Origin: a virus
DNA: 44,071 nt
IMG/VR virus record: IMGVR_UViG_3300003690_000019
Span: 1 to 44,071 of that record
Reading direction: 5' to 3' (one strand)
Position numbers and translations under genes: made by a program. This document shows positions 15,484 to 21,257 of the stretch, in pieces. The notes below the pieces were generated by a model. The model was not told the DNA's origin and made no database searches. It saw only the letters and a program-made list of their open reading frames with translations. Position 1 is the stretch's first letter; every line of letters begins with the position of its first letter.

Positions 15484-15807
15484 ATGAATGCAGAAACCAA
15501 GAAAACAACCGAGACGACAACTGACCTACCTCTTACTCCATTTGGTAACCTGCTACGCCATAGCCGTCCACTGAGCGATTGGACAACGATATCCAGTGAG
15601 CCAAACGGCATAGAGGGCGACATTGTGACGTGGTTGATACTTGGCCACAACGATACCGAATGTGAGGTTTTACTAGCCGAAGTTGAGCTAGTGATATCGC
15701 CAGACGATCTAATCCGTGAAGACGGTGAGAGCGATATTGTCGATGGTGCATGGCGTGAATATTGGGAGGAATCACTAGAGGTTTTCTACGCTGAGTTTTC
15801 CAAGTAG
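15484..15807 (+). CDS. 107-aa early protein, unknown
   Basis: This is the first gene of the early arm; the ATG at 15484 follows AAGGAA at 9 bases. The product is acidic: MNAETKKTTETTTDLPLTPF, then GIEGDIVTWLILGHNDTECEVLLAEVELVI, ending REYWEESLEVFYAEFSK. A small alpha/beta fold is likely. The first position in an early arm often belongs to proteins that take over host functions, but nothing in this sequence identifies a target. The stop TAG begins a conserved intercistronic stem-loop. Confidence 0.7.
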   Translation: MNAETKKTTETTTDLPLTPFGNLLRHSRPLSDWTTISSEPNGIEGDIVTWLILGHNDTECEVLLAEVELVISPDDLIREDGESDIVDGAWREYWEESLEVFYAEFSK

Positions 15808-15808
15808 C

Positions 15809-15846
15809 CACAATCCGCACCCCTGGCAGTCAGGGGTGCCATTGTG
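15809..15846 (+). repeat. intercistronic stem-loop, copy 1 of 3
   Basis: The outer arms CACAAT (15809-15814) and ATTGTG (15841-15846) are shared by all three copies. The inner stem here is GCACCCCTG/CAGGGGTGC (15817-15825/15831-15839) with loop GCAGT. It lies directly after the stop of the 107-aa gene and is followed by TTTACTTTCCAACC and the next ribosome binding site. Confidence 0.85.
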
Positions 15847-15878
15847 TTTACTTTCCAACCAACCGGGAGAATCTGATC

Positions 15879-16166
15879 ATGACAACCGTTCACAATGAAT
15901 CTATCCATAGCTATGGCTGGGATACCAAGCTGGTCATCCTGCTCGATATCGATGCGGAAACTATCGATCTGAATAGTAAAAGGCTGCGCGTTTTATCCTA
16001 TGGCGGGTACTCAATTCTCGTGCCGATAGTCGGTAAATATGAAACGTCACCGATGACAATTGACGCCAATACTGCTATCCGTTTCTTGAGTCTGAATGTT
16101 AATGGCGGTTATCGGCTCAAGATCATTCGGGAAACCAAGCAGGTTGTCATCCAGTCCGCCGAGTAG
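15879..16166 (+). CDS. 95-aa early protein, unknown
   Basis: The ATG at 15879 follows GGGAGAATCTGATC, a relative of the start cassette used at 17.5-18.2 kb. The protein appears beta-rich: TKLVILLDIDAETIDL, KRLRVLSYGGYSILVPIVG, TAIRFLSLNVNGGYRLKII, RETKQVVIQSAE. No family is recognised. It is flanked on both sides by copies of the stem-loop repeat, so it behaves as a separable cassette. Confidence 0.7.
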   Translation: MTTVHNESIHSYGWDTKLVILLDIDAETIDLNSKRLRVLSYGGYSILVPIVGKYETSPMTIDANTAIRFLSLNVNGGYRLKIIRETKQVVIQSAE

Positions 16167-16167
16167 C

Positions 16168-16204
16168 CACAATCCACGGGCTGAGCGATCAGCCCGTCAT
16201 TGTG
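16168..16204 (+). repeat. intercistronic stem-loop, copy 2 of 3
   Basis: The outer arms are CACAAT (16168-16173) and ATTGTG (16199-16204). The inner stem is ACGGGCTGA/TCAGCCCGT (16176-16184/16189-16197) with loop GCGA. The inner stem shares no sequence with copies 1 or 3, yet pairs perfectly. The stop TAG of the 95-aa gene again opens the element. Confidence 0.85.
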
Positions 16205-16238
16205 TTTATTTTGCCAACCAACGAGGAGAAATCTGACC

Positions 16239-16448
16239 ATGCCGAGAACATTCATAGAATCAACTGATAGAGACGATCCAGCCGACCAACCGGTTGACTA
16301 CTGCTTACCATGCTGGAATAAGCATCACATTAATCGGCTAAATATCCCATTGTCAGAATGTGATCATCCTGATTACGACGACGATCCCGGTTGGTACAAA
16401 TGCGAAAACCCTAATTGCGAAAACGTCCTGACAGAACGCGATAACTGA
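16239..16448 (+). CDS. 69-aa early protein with zinc-ribbon-like cysteines
   Basis: The ATG at 16239 follows GAGGAGAAATCTGACC. The product is acidic and contains CLPC (about residues 23-26), a lone Cys (SECDHPDY) and CENPNC near the end, so it may bind zinc. A short helix (NKHHINRLNIPLS) lies between. No enzyme motif is visible. It is one of several tiny Cys-pair proteins in this arm (see 17404, 17933, 18394 and 27111). The C-terminus is followed by stem-loop copy 3. Confidence 0.7.
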   Translation: MPRTFIESTDRDDPADQPVDYCLPCWNKHHINRLNIPLSECDHPDYDDDPGWYKCENPNCENVLTERDN

Positions 16449-16454
16449 GTAGCC

Positions 16455-16490
16455 ACAATCCGCCGACCGGTAGCGCGGTCGGCCATTGTG
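16455..16490 (+). repeat. intercistronic stem-loop, copy 3 of 3
   Basis: The outer arms are CACAAT (16455-16459 plus the preceding base) and ATTGTG (16485-16490). The inner stem is GCCGACCG/CGGTCGGC (16462-16469/16476-16483) with a 6-base loop. GTAGC precedes it as in the other copies, although here the gene's own stop is TGA, so the GTAGC is conserved independently of serving as a stop. Confidence 0.85.
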
Positions 16491-16521
16491 TTTACTTCCC
16501 TTACCAACAAGAGGAAAAATC

Positions 16522-17403: not shown

Positions 17404-17565
17404 ATGTGTCCGATGTGCAATTGTGAGGAGTCTGTTTTACTCGGCCAACTAGGCCAGTCTGTTTATGTCCGTTGTCGCGCATGTGGTTGGGATCACACTG
17501 TAGAAGAGGAGGATCCTGGCATGTTTGCCGATGACCTAGAAGAGGAGGAGAATCTACCATGTTGA
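17404..17565 (+). CDS. 53-aa zinc-ribbon protein
   Basis: The frame starts at 17404 with MCPMCNCEESVLLGQLGQSV and has a second Cys pair in RCRACGW, the classic CPxC...CxxC(G) zinc ribbon of about 25 residues. The acidic tail (VEEEDPGMFADDLEEEENLPC) results partly from reading through the start cassette of the next gene. The upstream signal GAGG lies close to the ATG. The stop overlaps the next start (ATGTTGA). Its role is unknown; such mini-ribbons often bind RNA polymerase or nucleic acid. Confidence 0.68.
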   Translation: MCPMCNCEESVLLGQLGQSVYVRCRACGWDHTVEEEDPGMFADDLEEEENLPC

Positions 17566-17660: not shown

Positions 17661-17949
17661 GACAATTGAGGATTTAACGGAGGCCTACGGATTAGAGTGG
17701 ATCGATTACGTTGAGTACTTAACGGATGGAGTGTGCATAGCTGGAAATCCAACGATCGCAGCCCTACCATGTGGCGATCCTGACTGCGTGTGCAGTACTC
17801 TTACTCAAACAGATGGAGAGTCTACCAATGGAACACTCGCAATGGATTGCAGTGGCAATATTCCTGATCGGCTGGGTTGCCTGGCTGGCCTGGCTGGATC
17901 GCACCCCAACATGAGAGAAGGAGAGTCTACCGATGGTGACAGCTCATGA
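17647..17949 (+). CDS. 100-aa acidic hypothetical protein with nested gene
   Basis: The ATG at 17647 is opened by cassette copy 2. The N-terminal half looks like a folded domain (MKEIRTIEDLTEAYGLEWID, then LPCGDPDCVCSTL with three close cysteines). After residue about 58 the frame runs through cassette copy 3 and the nested 28-aa membrane gene. The C-terminal 40 residues (ESTNGTLAMDCSGNIPDRLG...) may therefore be a by-product of the overlap. It ends GESTDGDSS inside cassette copy 4. Confidence 0.6.
   Translation: MKEIRTIEDLTEAYGLEWIDYVEYLTDGVCIAGNPTIAALPCGDPDCVCSTLTQTDGESTNGTLAMDCSGNIPDRLGCLAGLAGSHPNMREGESTDGDSS
17828..17914 (+). CDS. 28-aa membrane mini-protein nested in another gene
   Basis: It is opened by cassette copy 3 (GGAGAGTCTACC) in the +1 frame of the 100-aa gene. 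The product reads MEHSQWIAVAIFLIGWVAWL then AWLDRTPT, a single Trp-rich membrane helix. The frame alone would be too short to trust. The dedicated start cassette and the perfect membrane span support it. The next cassette begins right after its stop. Confidence 0.55.
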   Translation: MEHSQWIAVAIFLIGWVAWLAWLDRTPT

Positions 17950-18393: not shown

Positions 18394-18648
18394 ATGAAAG
18401 AGAAAGTCACAACAACCTGCCCCTGTGGAACCTCTCTGCCCGTGCAATTCACCGAGCAGGAGGGGTACGACGTATGCGATGTCGAGTGCCACGCCTGCGG
18501 TCGCCTGTCAACAGGTGGAAACGGAAGGACAGGAGAGGTGAACGGCTGGGTCACCGCCAAAGATGCAGCCCAATCTCAAGCATCATACGAGGCACTGCAG
18601 TTTGATTCCGATATGAACGAGTGGTATGGCCGAGGTAACTGGGCCTGA
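18394..18648 (+). CDS. 84-aa protein with zinc-ribbon-like N-terminus
   Basis: The ATG at 18394 follows GAGGAGG at 9 bases, just after the previous stop. It has CPCGTSLPV (about residues 9-17) and CHACGRLS (about 32-39), a CxCG...CxxCG ribbon, followed by a polar tail (DAAQSQASYEALQFDSDMNEWYGRG). A terminator follows within 20 bases, making this the last gene of the small-gene operon. Confidence 0.68.
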   Translation: MKEKVTTTCPCGTSLPVQFTEQEGYDVCDVECHACGRLSTGGNGRTGEVNGWVTAKDAAQSQASYEALQFDSDMNEWYGRGNWA

Positions 18649-18667
18649 CGGAGTTGAGTCTATCACT

Positions 18668-18700
18668 GGGGCTGGCCTGATATGGGCCAGCCCCCTTTTT
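18668..18700 (+). terminator. intrinsic terminator before the recombinase
   Basis: GGGGCTGGCC (18668-18677) pairs with GGCCAGCCCC (18685-18694), with loop TGATATG, and is followed by C and TTTTT. This strong Rho-independent terminator ends the small-gene operon. It also rules out the longer recombinase start at 18626, whose extension would be encoded by the hairpin. Confidence 0.9.
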
Positions 18701-18715
18701 ACAGGGAAACAGGAC

Positions 18716-20017
18716 ATGCGATTGATTGCATATGTGCGAGTGAGTACAGCTGAACAGGATAGTCTAGCAGCACAAGAGAGCAGTATTAGACGCTACTGTG
18801 AGGCTCTGGGACACGATCTCACAGACGTTTACAGTGACAAGGCCTCTGGATCAGGGATGACTGAGCGAGACGGTCTACGATCCCTGCTGGCACGCCTGGA
18901 AGGGGACGACGTTGACGGTGTGATCGTCACCAAGATCGACCGGTTGAGTAGATCGATGAAAGACTGGTCGACGTTGGTGGAGGAGTATTTCCAGAAGGGC
19001 GGATTGAACAAGAAACTCGTTGCTCTGGACATGAACATTGATACCAGTACTGCGACTGGCGAGCTATTCCTGAATCTGATGATCATGCTGAGTCAATGGG
19101 AACGTCGGATGATTGGCGAGCGTACGAGTGAGGCCTTGCAGGAAATGCGAGCTGAGGGCCGCCGCGTGGGCGGGCGGCCCCCCTATGGCTGGAAAGCAGG
19201 CGGCAAGGGCAAGGCGTGGTGGATCCCTCATCCAGCGGAGCGGCTACGGATTTACACGATGCGAGCTATCAGGGAGGAATTAGGTTACGGCAACAAGAGG
19301 ATAGCTGACTGGCTGAACGACCACGGGTTATTCCACAAGCTGGGTAAGAAATGGACCGAATATAAGGTTTGGTATGTCCGCCAGCGGTGTGAAAAGAGTA
19401 TGTCAGTCCCTCAACCTCCAGACTTCAAACTGTCGGACGTTGTTGACCAGACCAAGAGCCCTTACCTGCGTACGGATTTGATGAATAAGTGTACTATGCG
19501 CCTGTTTGACGCTGGTTTGCTGGATGAATACTTAACCACGGACCTTCACTACGAGCCGACGATTGAGGATCAGCTGGAGGTATATGAGACAGCCGGCGGC
19601 CACACGGCAGCCGTCTGGGGTGAGGGTGAGCAGATGATTGCCTTATGGTATTTCCCTGAGGAGGATCTACTGAGCTGGCGGAAATTAGCTCGGCGGGCCT
19701 CGGGCGGTATTCTTGATTACGGGGACTACATCCGCATGTTGAATCATATTGACTGGGAGCATCGCGAGGCGGGTTACCGGGTGGTCTGGGTGAACATCCG
19801 CGTGCGTCAGCTGGTTGGCGAGGTGAAGCGTCGGGGCTTGGACAACACTTCGGAGAACAGAGCGGCGATTCTATCATTGGTCGCGGCACAGGCCACGGGA
19901 GTGAGCGAGCTGGACGATGTAGAGCTGACGACTCATGGCAAGGGCGGATATTTACTCAAGAATCTGCTCAGCAATACCGATAAGACGGGTAGCGAAGAAC
20001 CAGCCCTGAAAAATTAA
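18716..20017 (+). CDS. serine recombinase with an unusual C-terminal domain
   Basis: The protein has 433 residues; the ATG at 18716 follows CAGGGAAACAGGA. Residues 1-145 form the resolvase/invertase catalytic domain: RLIAYVRVST with nucleophile Ser10, then DKASGSGMTERDGL, VIVTKIDRLSRS and the arm helix QWERRMIGERT. Residues about 160-225 (RVGGRPPYGW ... ELGYGNKRIADWLNDHG) form the 'recombinase' DNA-binding domain. Large serine recombinases usually continue with a Cys-rich zinc ribbon and coiled coil. Here the last 200 residues have no ribbon and instead a domain with VWGEGEQMIALWYFPEEDL and DYGDYIRMLNHIDWEHREAG that I cannot place. The product may integrate the phage or resolve DNA. No att site is evident. 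Confidence 0.85.
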   Translation: MRLIAYVRVSTAEQDSLAAQESSIRRYCEALGHDLTDVYSDKASGSGMTERDGLRSLLARLEGDDVDGVIVTKIDRLSRSMKDWSTLVEEYFQKGGLNKKLVALDMNIDTSTATGELFLNLMIMLSQWERRMIGERTSEALQEMRAEGRRVGGRPPYGWKAGGKGKAWWIPHPAERLRIYTMRAIREELGYGNKRIADWLNDHGLFHKLGKKWTEYKVWYVRQRCEKSMSVPQPPDFKLSDVVDQTKSPYLRTDLMNKCTMRLFDAGLLDEYLTTDLHYEPTIEDQLEVYETAGGHTAAVWGEGEQMIALWYFPEEDLLSWRKLARRASGGILDYGDYIRMLNHIDWEHREAGYRVVWVNIRVRQLVGEVKRRGLDNTSENRAAILSLVAAQATGVSELDDVELTTHGKGGYLLKNLLSNTDKTGSEEPALKN

Positions 20018-20047: not shown

Positions 20048-20070
20048 AAGTCGTTGGTAGTCAACGACTT
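20048..20070 (+). promoter_or_regulatory. inverted repeat at the transcription start (operator or leader hairpin)
   Basis: AAGTCGTTG (20048-20056) and CAACGACTT (20062-20070) form a perfect 9-bp inverted repeat with 5-base centre GTAGT. It begins about 11 bases after the -10. It could bind a dimeric repressor or fold at the 5' end of the mRNA, 24 bases before the ATG. Confidence 0.6.
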
Positions 20071-20093
20071 ACACCTCAACAAGGAGAAGACTC

Positions 20094-20387
20094 ATGAAAG
20101 ATTCAGAGAGGAAGTACTATCAGAGCCTATCTGATACGTGCATCGCGGCGATGACACTTTCCAAGGAGGAACCCGGTCGTTACGGCGGTCGCTACATCTT
20201 CAGGGACAGCAAGGAAGCTTACATCATCCACAAGGATGATGATCCCGAGGCTCTGACCGAGGAAGAGAAAGATATGGTCTGGGCTCACTGCCAGGCGGAT
20301 ACTACTCACGCCGTTGGGGGTTACAGCAAGTACTATCTCAACGAGGACGGTACGATCGACTGGGACTGGCTGGAGGAAAACTTCTAG
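20094..20387 (+). CDS. 97-aa acidic protein in its own transcription unit
   Basis: The ATG at 20094 follows AAGGAGAAGACTC. The product has a helical start (MKDSERKYYQSLSDTCIAAM), then GGRYIFRDSKEAYIIHKDDD, EEEKDMVWAHCQAD and an acidic end (EDGTIDWDWLEENF). No family is recognised. The gene has a private promoter with an inverted repeat and a strong terminator. This monocistronic, tightly bounded layout is unusual in this compact genome and suggests separate regulation, as for a superinfection or anti-host factor. That role is only an inference. Confidence 0.72.
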   Translation: MKDSERKYYQSLSDTCIAAMTLSKEEPGRYGGRYIFRDSKEAYIIHKDDDPEALTEEEKDMVWAHCQADTTHAVGGYSKYYLNEDGTIDWDWLEENF

Positions 20388-20405
20388 ACCAGCTGACATT
20401 CCTTA

Positions 20406-20435
20406 CCCCTTGCACGCGGTGTGCAAGGGGTTTTT
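20406..20435 (+). terminator. intrinsic terminator after the 97-aa gene
   Basis: CCCCTTGCAC (20406-20415), loop GCGGT, GTGCAAGGGG (20421-20430) and TTTTT form a textbook terminator 18 bases after the stop codon. It insulates the non-coding RNA unit downstream. Confidence 0.93.
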
Positions 20436-20447
20436 CTGCTTACTCAC

Positions 20448-20475
20448 TTGCACCCTTCCCTTGACCGGTTAAAAT
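20448..20475 (+). promoter_or_regulatory. candidate promoter of the structured RNA unit
   Basis: TTGCAC (20448-20453), a 16-base spacer and TAAAAT (20470-20475, five of six to consensus) lie 13 bases after the preceding terminator. The predicted start near 20482 precedes the first paired element of the RNA by 12 bases. The -35 is weak. Confidence 0.5.
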
Positions 20476-20481
20476 CAGGTC

Positions 20482-20768
20482 AGTCATCAGGCAGATAGTC
20501 CACCTGGCGGAAATGAAGCAACCCAGAGCGACAGCTCTAAAACAAAGCACCACCGCTGATGCGTCTCGGGTTGGTAACCGATGGGGAGACAGCGGGAGTC
20601 AGACCTAACGCATCTGGCTTGGACGACTATCACAGATCTGACTACAACCTATCATTCCTAGATCTTGATTAGGACCGATGCGTTCACACGTTAAAGATGT
20701 TGGTCGCTAACCGCGATCTTCTTCTTGTTGGGGCCGAACGACCTGGGCAACTGGGTCGTTCGGTTTTT
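20482..20768 (+). ncRNA. putative structured non-coding RNA, about 290 nt
   Basis: There is no convincing open frame here, and it is bounded by a promoter and a perfect terminator. Visible helices are: GATAGTC (20494-20500) with GACTATC (20625-20631), closing a domain; AGAGC-GACA-GCTCT (20525-20538); and CCGCTG (20553-20558) with CAGCGG (20590-20595), stacked on TCTC/GAGA and GGTT-GGT-AACC. A bulge in that arm, within GATGCGT (20558-20564), can pair with ACGCATC (20608-20614). A second GATGCGT at 20677-20683 competes for the same partner. CCTA/TAGG (20657-20673) and the terminator stem complete it. It does not match tRNA, tmRNA, RNase P or a group I intron that I can recognise. Confidence 0.55.
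20734..20768 (+). terminator. intrinsic terminator of the structured RNA
   Basis: CCGAACGACC (20734-20743), a 10-base loop, GGTCGTTCGG (20754-20763) and TTTTT. The strong stem gives the RNA a defined 3' end. Confidence 0.92.
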
Positions 20769-20821
20769 ATATAGAGCCCGACCGGTGATCCTCCTTCACA
20801 CGGTAACGGGTTGCTTCCTCT

Positions 20822-20861
20822 GGGGCGGCGGCTTCTTGCAGGCCGCCGCCTCGGGGTTTTT
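20822..20861 (+). terminator. second terminator before the replication operon
   Basis: GGGGCGGCGGC (20822-20832) pairs with GCCGCCGCCTC (20842-20852, one G-T pair). The stem is extended by CTCT/GGGG and followed by TTTTT. It lies about 55 bases after the previous terminator, with no gene between, so it backs it up. Confidence 0.82.
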
Positions 20862-20890
20862 GGAATCTCCAGAAAATGCTGAAGCTCGGC

Positions 20891-20918
20891 TTGACGTGAT
20901 CCGATATTTCCATAAGAT
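20891..20918 (+). promoter_or_regulatory. promoter of the replication/recombination operon
   Basis: TTGACG (20891-20896), a 16-base spacer and TAAGAT (20913-20918) lie 30 bases after the tandem terminators and 46 bases before the first gene. The -35 matches five of six bases. It is the likely start of the operon running to 27.8 kb. Confidence 0.6.
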
Positions 20919-20963
20919 CAGAAGCCTAACAAGAACGAGATCATGATCCACGGAGGTTAAATC

Positions 20964-21257
20964 ATGACATCAACACCAACATCTTTTCGCTCTAGTCACG
21001 GTGAATGGAGAGTACAGCCCGAGTTCATGGACCGACACTTCTTGGTTGTCTCTCCTTTGGACGTTGTCTACCGCCGCTACCCGACCTATTCTCAGGCGCG
21101 TTGTGCTGCCGAGAAGATGGCCAGTACCATGTCCGGCGAGGTTGAGAGAGATCTGGTTGACCCGGCCAAGTATCGAGATCCAGAGACACAGCGTCTGCTG
21201 GACCGGTTACTTGCTGATCTGCTCCGCATCGAGGGGGAAGAGCATGACCTCCCTTGA
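20964..21257 (+). CDS. 97-aa hypothetical protein, first in replication operon
   Basis: The ATG at 20964 follows GGAGG at 8 bases. The product is a small alpha/beta protein: HGEWRVQPEFMDRHFLVVSP, YRRYPTYSQARCAAEKMAST, then RDPETQRLLDRLLADLLRIE. The pattern resembles small phage proteins of mixed fold with no known function. Its end overlaps the start of the nuclease gene (21244), so the two are translationally coupled. Confidence 0.65.
   Translation: MTSTPTSFRSSHGEWRVQPEFMDRHFLVVSPLDVVYRRYPTYSQARCAAEKMASTMSGEVERDLVDPAKYRDPETQRLLDRLLADLLRIEGEEHDLP

Follow-up and report, generated by a model that had tools for sequence, protein, structure and literature searches.

A predicted antisense small RNA between the integrase cassette and the recombination/replication operon of an uncultured phage

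Introduction

To our knowledge, most of the phage small RNAs (sRNAs) described so far have a single phage mRNA or the host as their target, and we know of little work on sRNAs with which a phage targets several of its own genes via one shared leader motif. RsaE and LhrC are C/U-rich bacterial sRNAs that bind Shine-Dalgarno regions, and the CI RNA of phage P4 is related to the c4 RNA of phages P1 and P7. The c4 RNA acts on a phage mRNA, that of ant: one of its segments is complementary to the sequence surrounding the ribosome binding site there and blocks translation (PMC12197685). The sar RNA of P22 and the OOP RNA of lambda are antisense to phage mRNAs and tune lysis-lysogeny genes, whilst VpdS of phage VP882 and PreS of lambda are independent trans-acting phage sRNAs (PMC12197685).

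Here we describe a candidate sRNA encoded at positions 20482 to 20768 of a virus record of 44071 bases, the whole of which was analysed and is referred to below as the window. It is nearest in mechanism to c4 of P1/P7, in that it is predicted to block the ribosome-binding sites of phage mRNAs. Unlike c4, however, the RNA appears to be larger and independently transcribed, carries one box before its terminator, has several predicted target leaders and has no Rfam match. The genes to which sar and OOP are antisense overlap them or lie nearby, whereas there is no overlap between this RNA and its predicted targets. Like VpdS and PreS it would be an independent, trans-acting phage sRNA, but those two are bound by Hfq and have mostly host mRNAs or sRNAs as targets, whereas the predicted targets here are phage genes. 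With RsaE and LhrC it would share a short, pyrimidine-rich, single-stranded element predicted to pair with several ribosome-binding sites, although RsaE and LhrC are chromosomal and have different sequences and hosts. We would classify the RNA as a new family within a known kind, phage antisense RNA, that is unusual in having several predicted phage targets. If this is right, an uncultured temperate phage lineage would have an RNA repressor-operator system that can be put to a direct test. It would also offer a search route to others, in which a recurring leader motif is reverse-complemented and sought just before a terminator.

Results and Discussion

The RNA unit sits between a serine-integrase cassette and a recombination/replication operon. 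The integrase gene (18626-20017) is followed by a gene for a 97-aa protein (20094-20387), which is preceded by a strong promoter-like site, and then by a terminator (20405-20431). The RNA itself (20482-20768, start approximate) lies on the plus strand, as do its promoter, its two downstream terminators, its internal elements and the target leaders discussed below. It ends in an intrinsic terminator with a stem and T-run (20734-20768), behind which a terminator scan placed a second, back-up terminator (20818-20856) that is absent from the relatives described next. The downstream operon starts at 20964 and encodes a 97-aa protein, a PD-(D/E)XK exonuclease, a Sak4 annealing protein and a primase-helicase.

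Searches with Sak4 and the exonuclease recruited two mutually close relatives, L003 and L004, giving three genomes in all. Their proteins are 65-76% identical to those of the window (73% for the L003 helicase), and their RNA is strongly diverged from the window RNA. The order of integrase, cargo gene, terminator, RNA, terminator and operon is common to all three, with the syntenic RNA units at 2171-2388 in L003 and 743-984 in L004. Across searches with the integrase, the exonuclease, Sak4, the primase-helicase and the leader palindrome described below, only these two relatives carried the unit. No RNA unit was found upstream in L007 and L008 (Sak4 identity 52 and 45%; the L008 contig ends early there), nor in the two gaps examined in Tunturi_2, a Tunturiibacter phage with a related Sak4. 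Since terminators stand directly between the RNA and the operon, the RNA might be conceived of as a leader or processive antitermination RNA that allows read-through of the tandem terminators into the recombination/replication genes. We consider this extremely unlikely, because a scan found a promoter-like site belonging to the operon at 20891-20918, between the terminators and the operon, and because such a role would leave the complementarity of the box reported below unexplained. Both relatives likewise have a TTGACA-like promoter site before the operon, downstream of the terminators.

The initial annotation had proposed that this stretch holds a structured, non-coding RNA of no known class with its own promoter and flanking terminators. 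The terminators were indeed found on both sides, at the three positions given above. The promoter is probable: the element TTGCAC-16 nt-TAAAAT at 20448-20475 has counterparts of matching position and spacing in both relatives (TTGTCT-16-TATAAT), but by consensus it is weak, particularly at -35, and the promoter scan of the window did not list it. There is no credible coding frame within the unit and no ORF conserved across the relatives. L003 and L004 differ by indels of 18, 1, 1 and 2 bases, the last three of which exclude a shared reading frame, in agreement with the earlier view that the unit contains no credible gene. Together with the terminators and the promoter of the relatives, this describes a separate transcription unit without a coding frame. 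ARAGORN found nothing over the window, and Rfam gave no match in the window at the gathering threshold and chance matches only at permissive thresholds. The Rfam model of C4-type antisense RNA was among those without a match at gathering, and nothing C4-like appeared at permissive thresholds. A nucleotide search with the RNA region in phage records also returned no match. The lack of a known Rfam class thus stands.

In the window, a hairpin before the box, P4 (20656-20674, TCCTA/TAGGA), matches in position a hairpin of L003 and L004. Between the two relatives, double compensatory changes number two in this hairpin and another two in the terminator stem; this count (four in two helices) was reached by 33 of 500 shuffles, with slid controls at 0-1. 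Two pairs of the P3 hairpin are lost in L004 compared with L003. The syntenic relatives with promoter and terminator, and the compensatory changes in two helices, back the proposal of a structured, independent non-coding RNA unit. A serine integrase gene lies nearby, and the stretch could in principle be an integrase attachment site, an operator DNA region or a decayed gene rather than an RNA unit. The strand-specific promoter, the terminators, the compensatory changes in RNA helices and the small indels between the relatives all speak against this, and we regard it as highly improbable.

The 5' part of the RNA had attracted attention as a possible switch or pseudoknot. A multibranch domain (20494-20631) is closed by GATAGTC (20494-20500) and GACTATC (20625-20631) and contains hairpins at 20525-20538 and 20553-20595. 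GATGCGT occurs twice (20558-20564 and 20677-20683), with a partner ACGCATC at 20608-20614. These pairings are present letter by letter, but the domain is no more stable than shuffled sequence. The full stretch (20482-20768) folds with z = -3.2 against shuffles, a stability due to the terminator. Without the terminator (20481-20727) z is -1.05 and 30 of 200 shuffles fold as well, the long-range domain (20488-20640) has z = -1.2 with 26 of 200 shuffles folding as well, and the L003 and L004 RNAs without their terminators have z of about -1.25. Complementarities of seven bases within 300 nt are common. Moreover, the 5' domain of the window fails to align with the relatives, in which the closing helix reads CTCCGTTG/CAACGGAG, with its first pair lost in L004.

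A cis- or trans-acting switch or structural RNA, in which the two GATGCGT copies compete for ACGCATC, would draw on the complementarities in the window and on an analogous loop-partner pair in L003, where the loop GATGTGC can pair with a downstream GCACATT, a partner that lies outside the L003 closing helix. In L004, however, the counterpart of this pairing contains a mismatch, so that one pseudoknot pair is broken in addition to the two pairs lost from its hairpin, and the second GATGCGT has no counterpart in the relatives. Two conserved alternative structures, as expected of a riboswitch, were therefore not found, given the fold statistics and the broken pair in L004. Furthermore, a terminator closes the unit, and the next operon is preceded by its own promoter-like site. 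Neither fold statistics nor relatives support a switch or pseudoknot, and we judge such a role very unlikely.

The most informative element, which the initial annotation overlooked, is the box GATCTTCTTCTTGTTGGGG at 20715-20733. Its conserved 14-nt core, TCTTC(T/A)TGTTGGGG at 20720-20733, lies directly 5' of the terminator stem. No other ungapped match between the window RNA and the RNAs of L003 and L004 is as good (0/200 and 1/200 shuffles). The pattern TCTTCNTGTTGGGG plus a T-run occurs in 84 stretches of viral contigs, and a terminator stem stands directly behind the box in the three units only. One pattern match, in L132, was rejected as the antisense reading of an ordinary ribosome-binding site.

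We scanned the box against the whole 44 kb window on both strands and ranked the non-self sites by duplex energy. Ranked first is the ribosome-binding site preceding the 97-aa gene at 20094 (20075-20093; -27.7 kcal/mol, 19 base pairs, one bulge). The second is that of an 83-aa gene at 17933 (17903-17928; -24.7 kcal/mol) and the third is the leader of the 20964 operon (20925-20942; -24.3 kcal/mol, 17 of 18 positions paired including wobbles). The two leaders adjacent to the RNA are thus among the three best predicted targets. The box is the best-pairing segment for both of them, and pairing with both involves the 14-nt core and its 5' flank. The site in the operon leader lies 21-39 nt before the start codon and not on the Shine-Dalgarno sequence, whereas at most targets the duplexes span -24 to 0 relative to the start codon. 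Further predicted targets are cassette leaders between 15460 and 18172 with CAAC before the Shine-Dalgarno sequence, belonging to genes 15484, 15879, 16239, 16522, 17647 and 18174 (duplexes -15.6 to -21.9). Among 174 start sites with a Shine-Dalgarno sequence, the best box sites are mostly in the plus-strand cassette at 15.4-21 kb. With gene starts taken from a simple caller of our own plus cassette starts added by hand, CAAC precedes the Shine-Dalgarno sequence at 9 of 14 cassette starts versus 1 of 34 others (Fisher p ~1e-5).

After opening of both partners, the net energies are -12.0 kcal/mol for 20094 and -6.5 kcal/mol for 20964, and in the relatives -9 to -13 (L003) and -9.5 to -9.8 kcal/mol (L004); several cassette targets are weak in net energy (-1.2 to -3.5). 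In the window RNA, the GTTGGGG half of the box is predicted to pair internally, and the Shine-Dalgarno region of the free 20094 leader is mostly unpaired (0.69).

As the box includes an anti-Shine-Dalgarno stretch, some pairing with any ribosome-binding site is expected, and we therefore took as controls further 19-mers from this genome, each likewise with such a stretch. The two adjacent leaders were selected purely by their position; with them the box gave a mean of -25.35 against -9.84 +/- 2.02 kcal/mol, with 0 of 1500 controls as good (z = -7.7). For the 12 other cassette starts, taken regardless of sequence, 4 of 1500 controls were as good (z = -4.1), compared with 210 of 1500 for 31 other genes of the phage (z = -1.1). 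None of all 17346 19-mers of the window pairs as well with the leaders, some of which were picked after the fact. The same comparison of all 19-mers against a genome's own leaders gave 1/12273 in L003 and 0/8554 in L004, and the shuffle tests of L003 and L004 alone are modest (12-25 of 300, mean of the top five). When a 19-mer was slid along 20440-20885, a single cassette-specific peak appeared at 20713-20719. The RNA hence contains a conserved segment whose complementarity to mRNAs goes beyond chance. The sole variable base of the box (T/A) suits the downstream leader of each genome, with energies of -16.2 for a genome's own box versus -12.0 for the other, and -17.8 versus -13.8; this amounts to one co-change of box and leader, and for the upstream leaders of L003 and L004 the allele of the window would be the better fit.

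These controls also bear on the identity of the targets. Among known phage sRNAs, several target host genes (PMC12197685), and the RNA may be real and carry an anti-ribosome-binding-site box whose main targets are host mRNAs during takeover, the phage match then reflecting a general style of ribosome-binding site in phage and host. However, among the genes of this phage the box favours the cassette and adjacent leaders over 31 others, and its variable base changes along with the downstream phage leader, and we think host targeting unlikely.

We consider it probable, from the sequence evidence, that the unit is a gene for a trans-acting antisense sRNA that represses a phage regulon. An RNA of about 285 nt would be transcribed from its own promoter and end at the terminator at 20768. 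Its 5' domain and P4 hairpin would serve as a scaffold, and the box (20715-20733), lying between P4 and the terminator, would be the antisense element. This element would pair with the CAAC-plus-Shine-Dalgarno part of phage leaders, those of gene 20094, of the first mRNA of the 20964 operon and of several genes of the 15.4-18.6 kb cassette. The ribosome-binding site would thereby be covered, and translation repressed or the mRNA led to decay. The unit boundaries, the conservation of the box, synteny, complementarity well above controls and one co-change of box and leader are what the genomes themselves display; that the RNA is made, that it pairs in the cell, that it represses and when it acts is what we infer from them. 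Because most duplexes cover -24 to 0 and the Shine-Dalgarno sequence of 20094 is mostly unpaired, blocking of the ribosome-binding site appears likelier than activation.

A bolder form of this proposal, to which we give little credence, casts the RNA in the part of a CI protein, as the repressor of the phage, which would silence a whole early regulon in the lysogen or once early expression is over. CAAC plus the Shine-Dalgarno sequence would then be a common operator in about ten leaders, including both flanking transcription units. The phage has an integrase, yet a scan of 20 small proteins for a repressor-like or HTH domain turned up none, so there is room, but no more than room, for a repressor made of RNA.

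Several further features of the locus were observed. At 20771-20856 lies a second short terminator unit with TCCTCCTT and CTTCCTC, which is absent in the relatives; we rejected it as the carrier of a second box, as its leader pairing is not cassette-specific. The slot behind the integrase promoter (20094-20387) holds unrelated small genes in the window, L003 and L004 behind a conserved leader. This suggests a slot for variable cargo, possibly anti-defence genes, under common control. In the cassette, a 53-aa protein (17404-17565) weakly resembles Lar, a restriction alleviation protein, in a match (E 6e-4) that falls short of the cut-off.

Directly behind the post-integrase promoter, a palindrome, AAGTCGTTG-gtagt-CAACGACTT (20048-20070), is kept in L003 and L004. 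It also occurs in unrelated viral contigs and in contigs of Akkermansia and Fibrobacter MAGs (L085-L096), where it often adjoins a second palindrome, e.g. TAACTCGTTGA..TCAACGAGTTA. A literature search for the first palindrome did not find it; it is possibly a widely distributed operator or recombination site. Three intercistronic elements (15802-15872, 16161-16231 and 16447-16517) have the form GTAGCCACAATCC-[variable GC stem]-CATTGTGTTTACTT, with conserved ends and stems that change yet still pair, and each lies directly 5' of a CAAC-containing ribosome-binding site. Finally, between 17540 and 18172, five near-identical leaders of the AACAGGAGGAGAATCTACC type occur within 630 bases, 5' of small genes.
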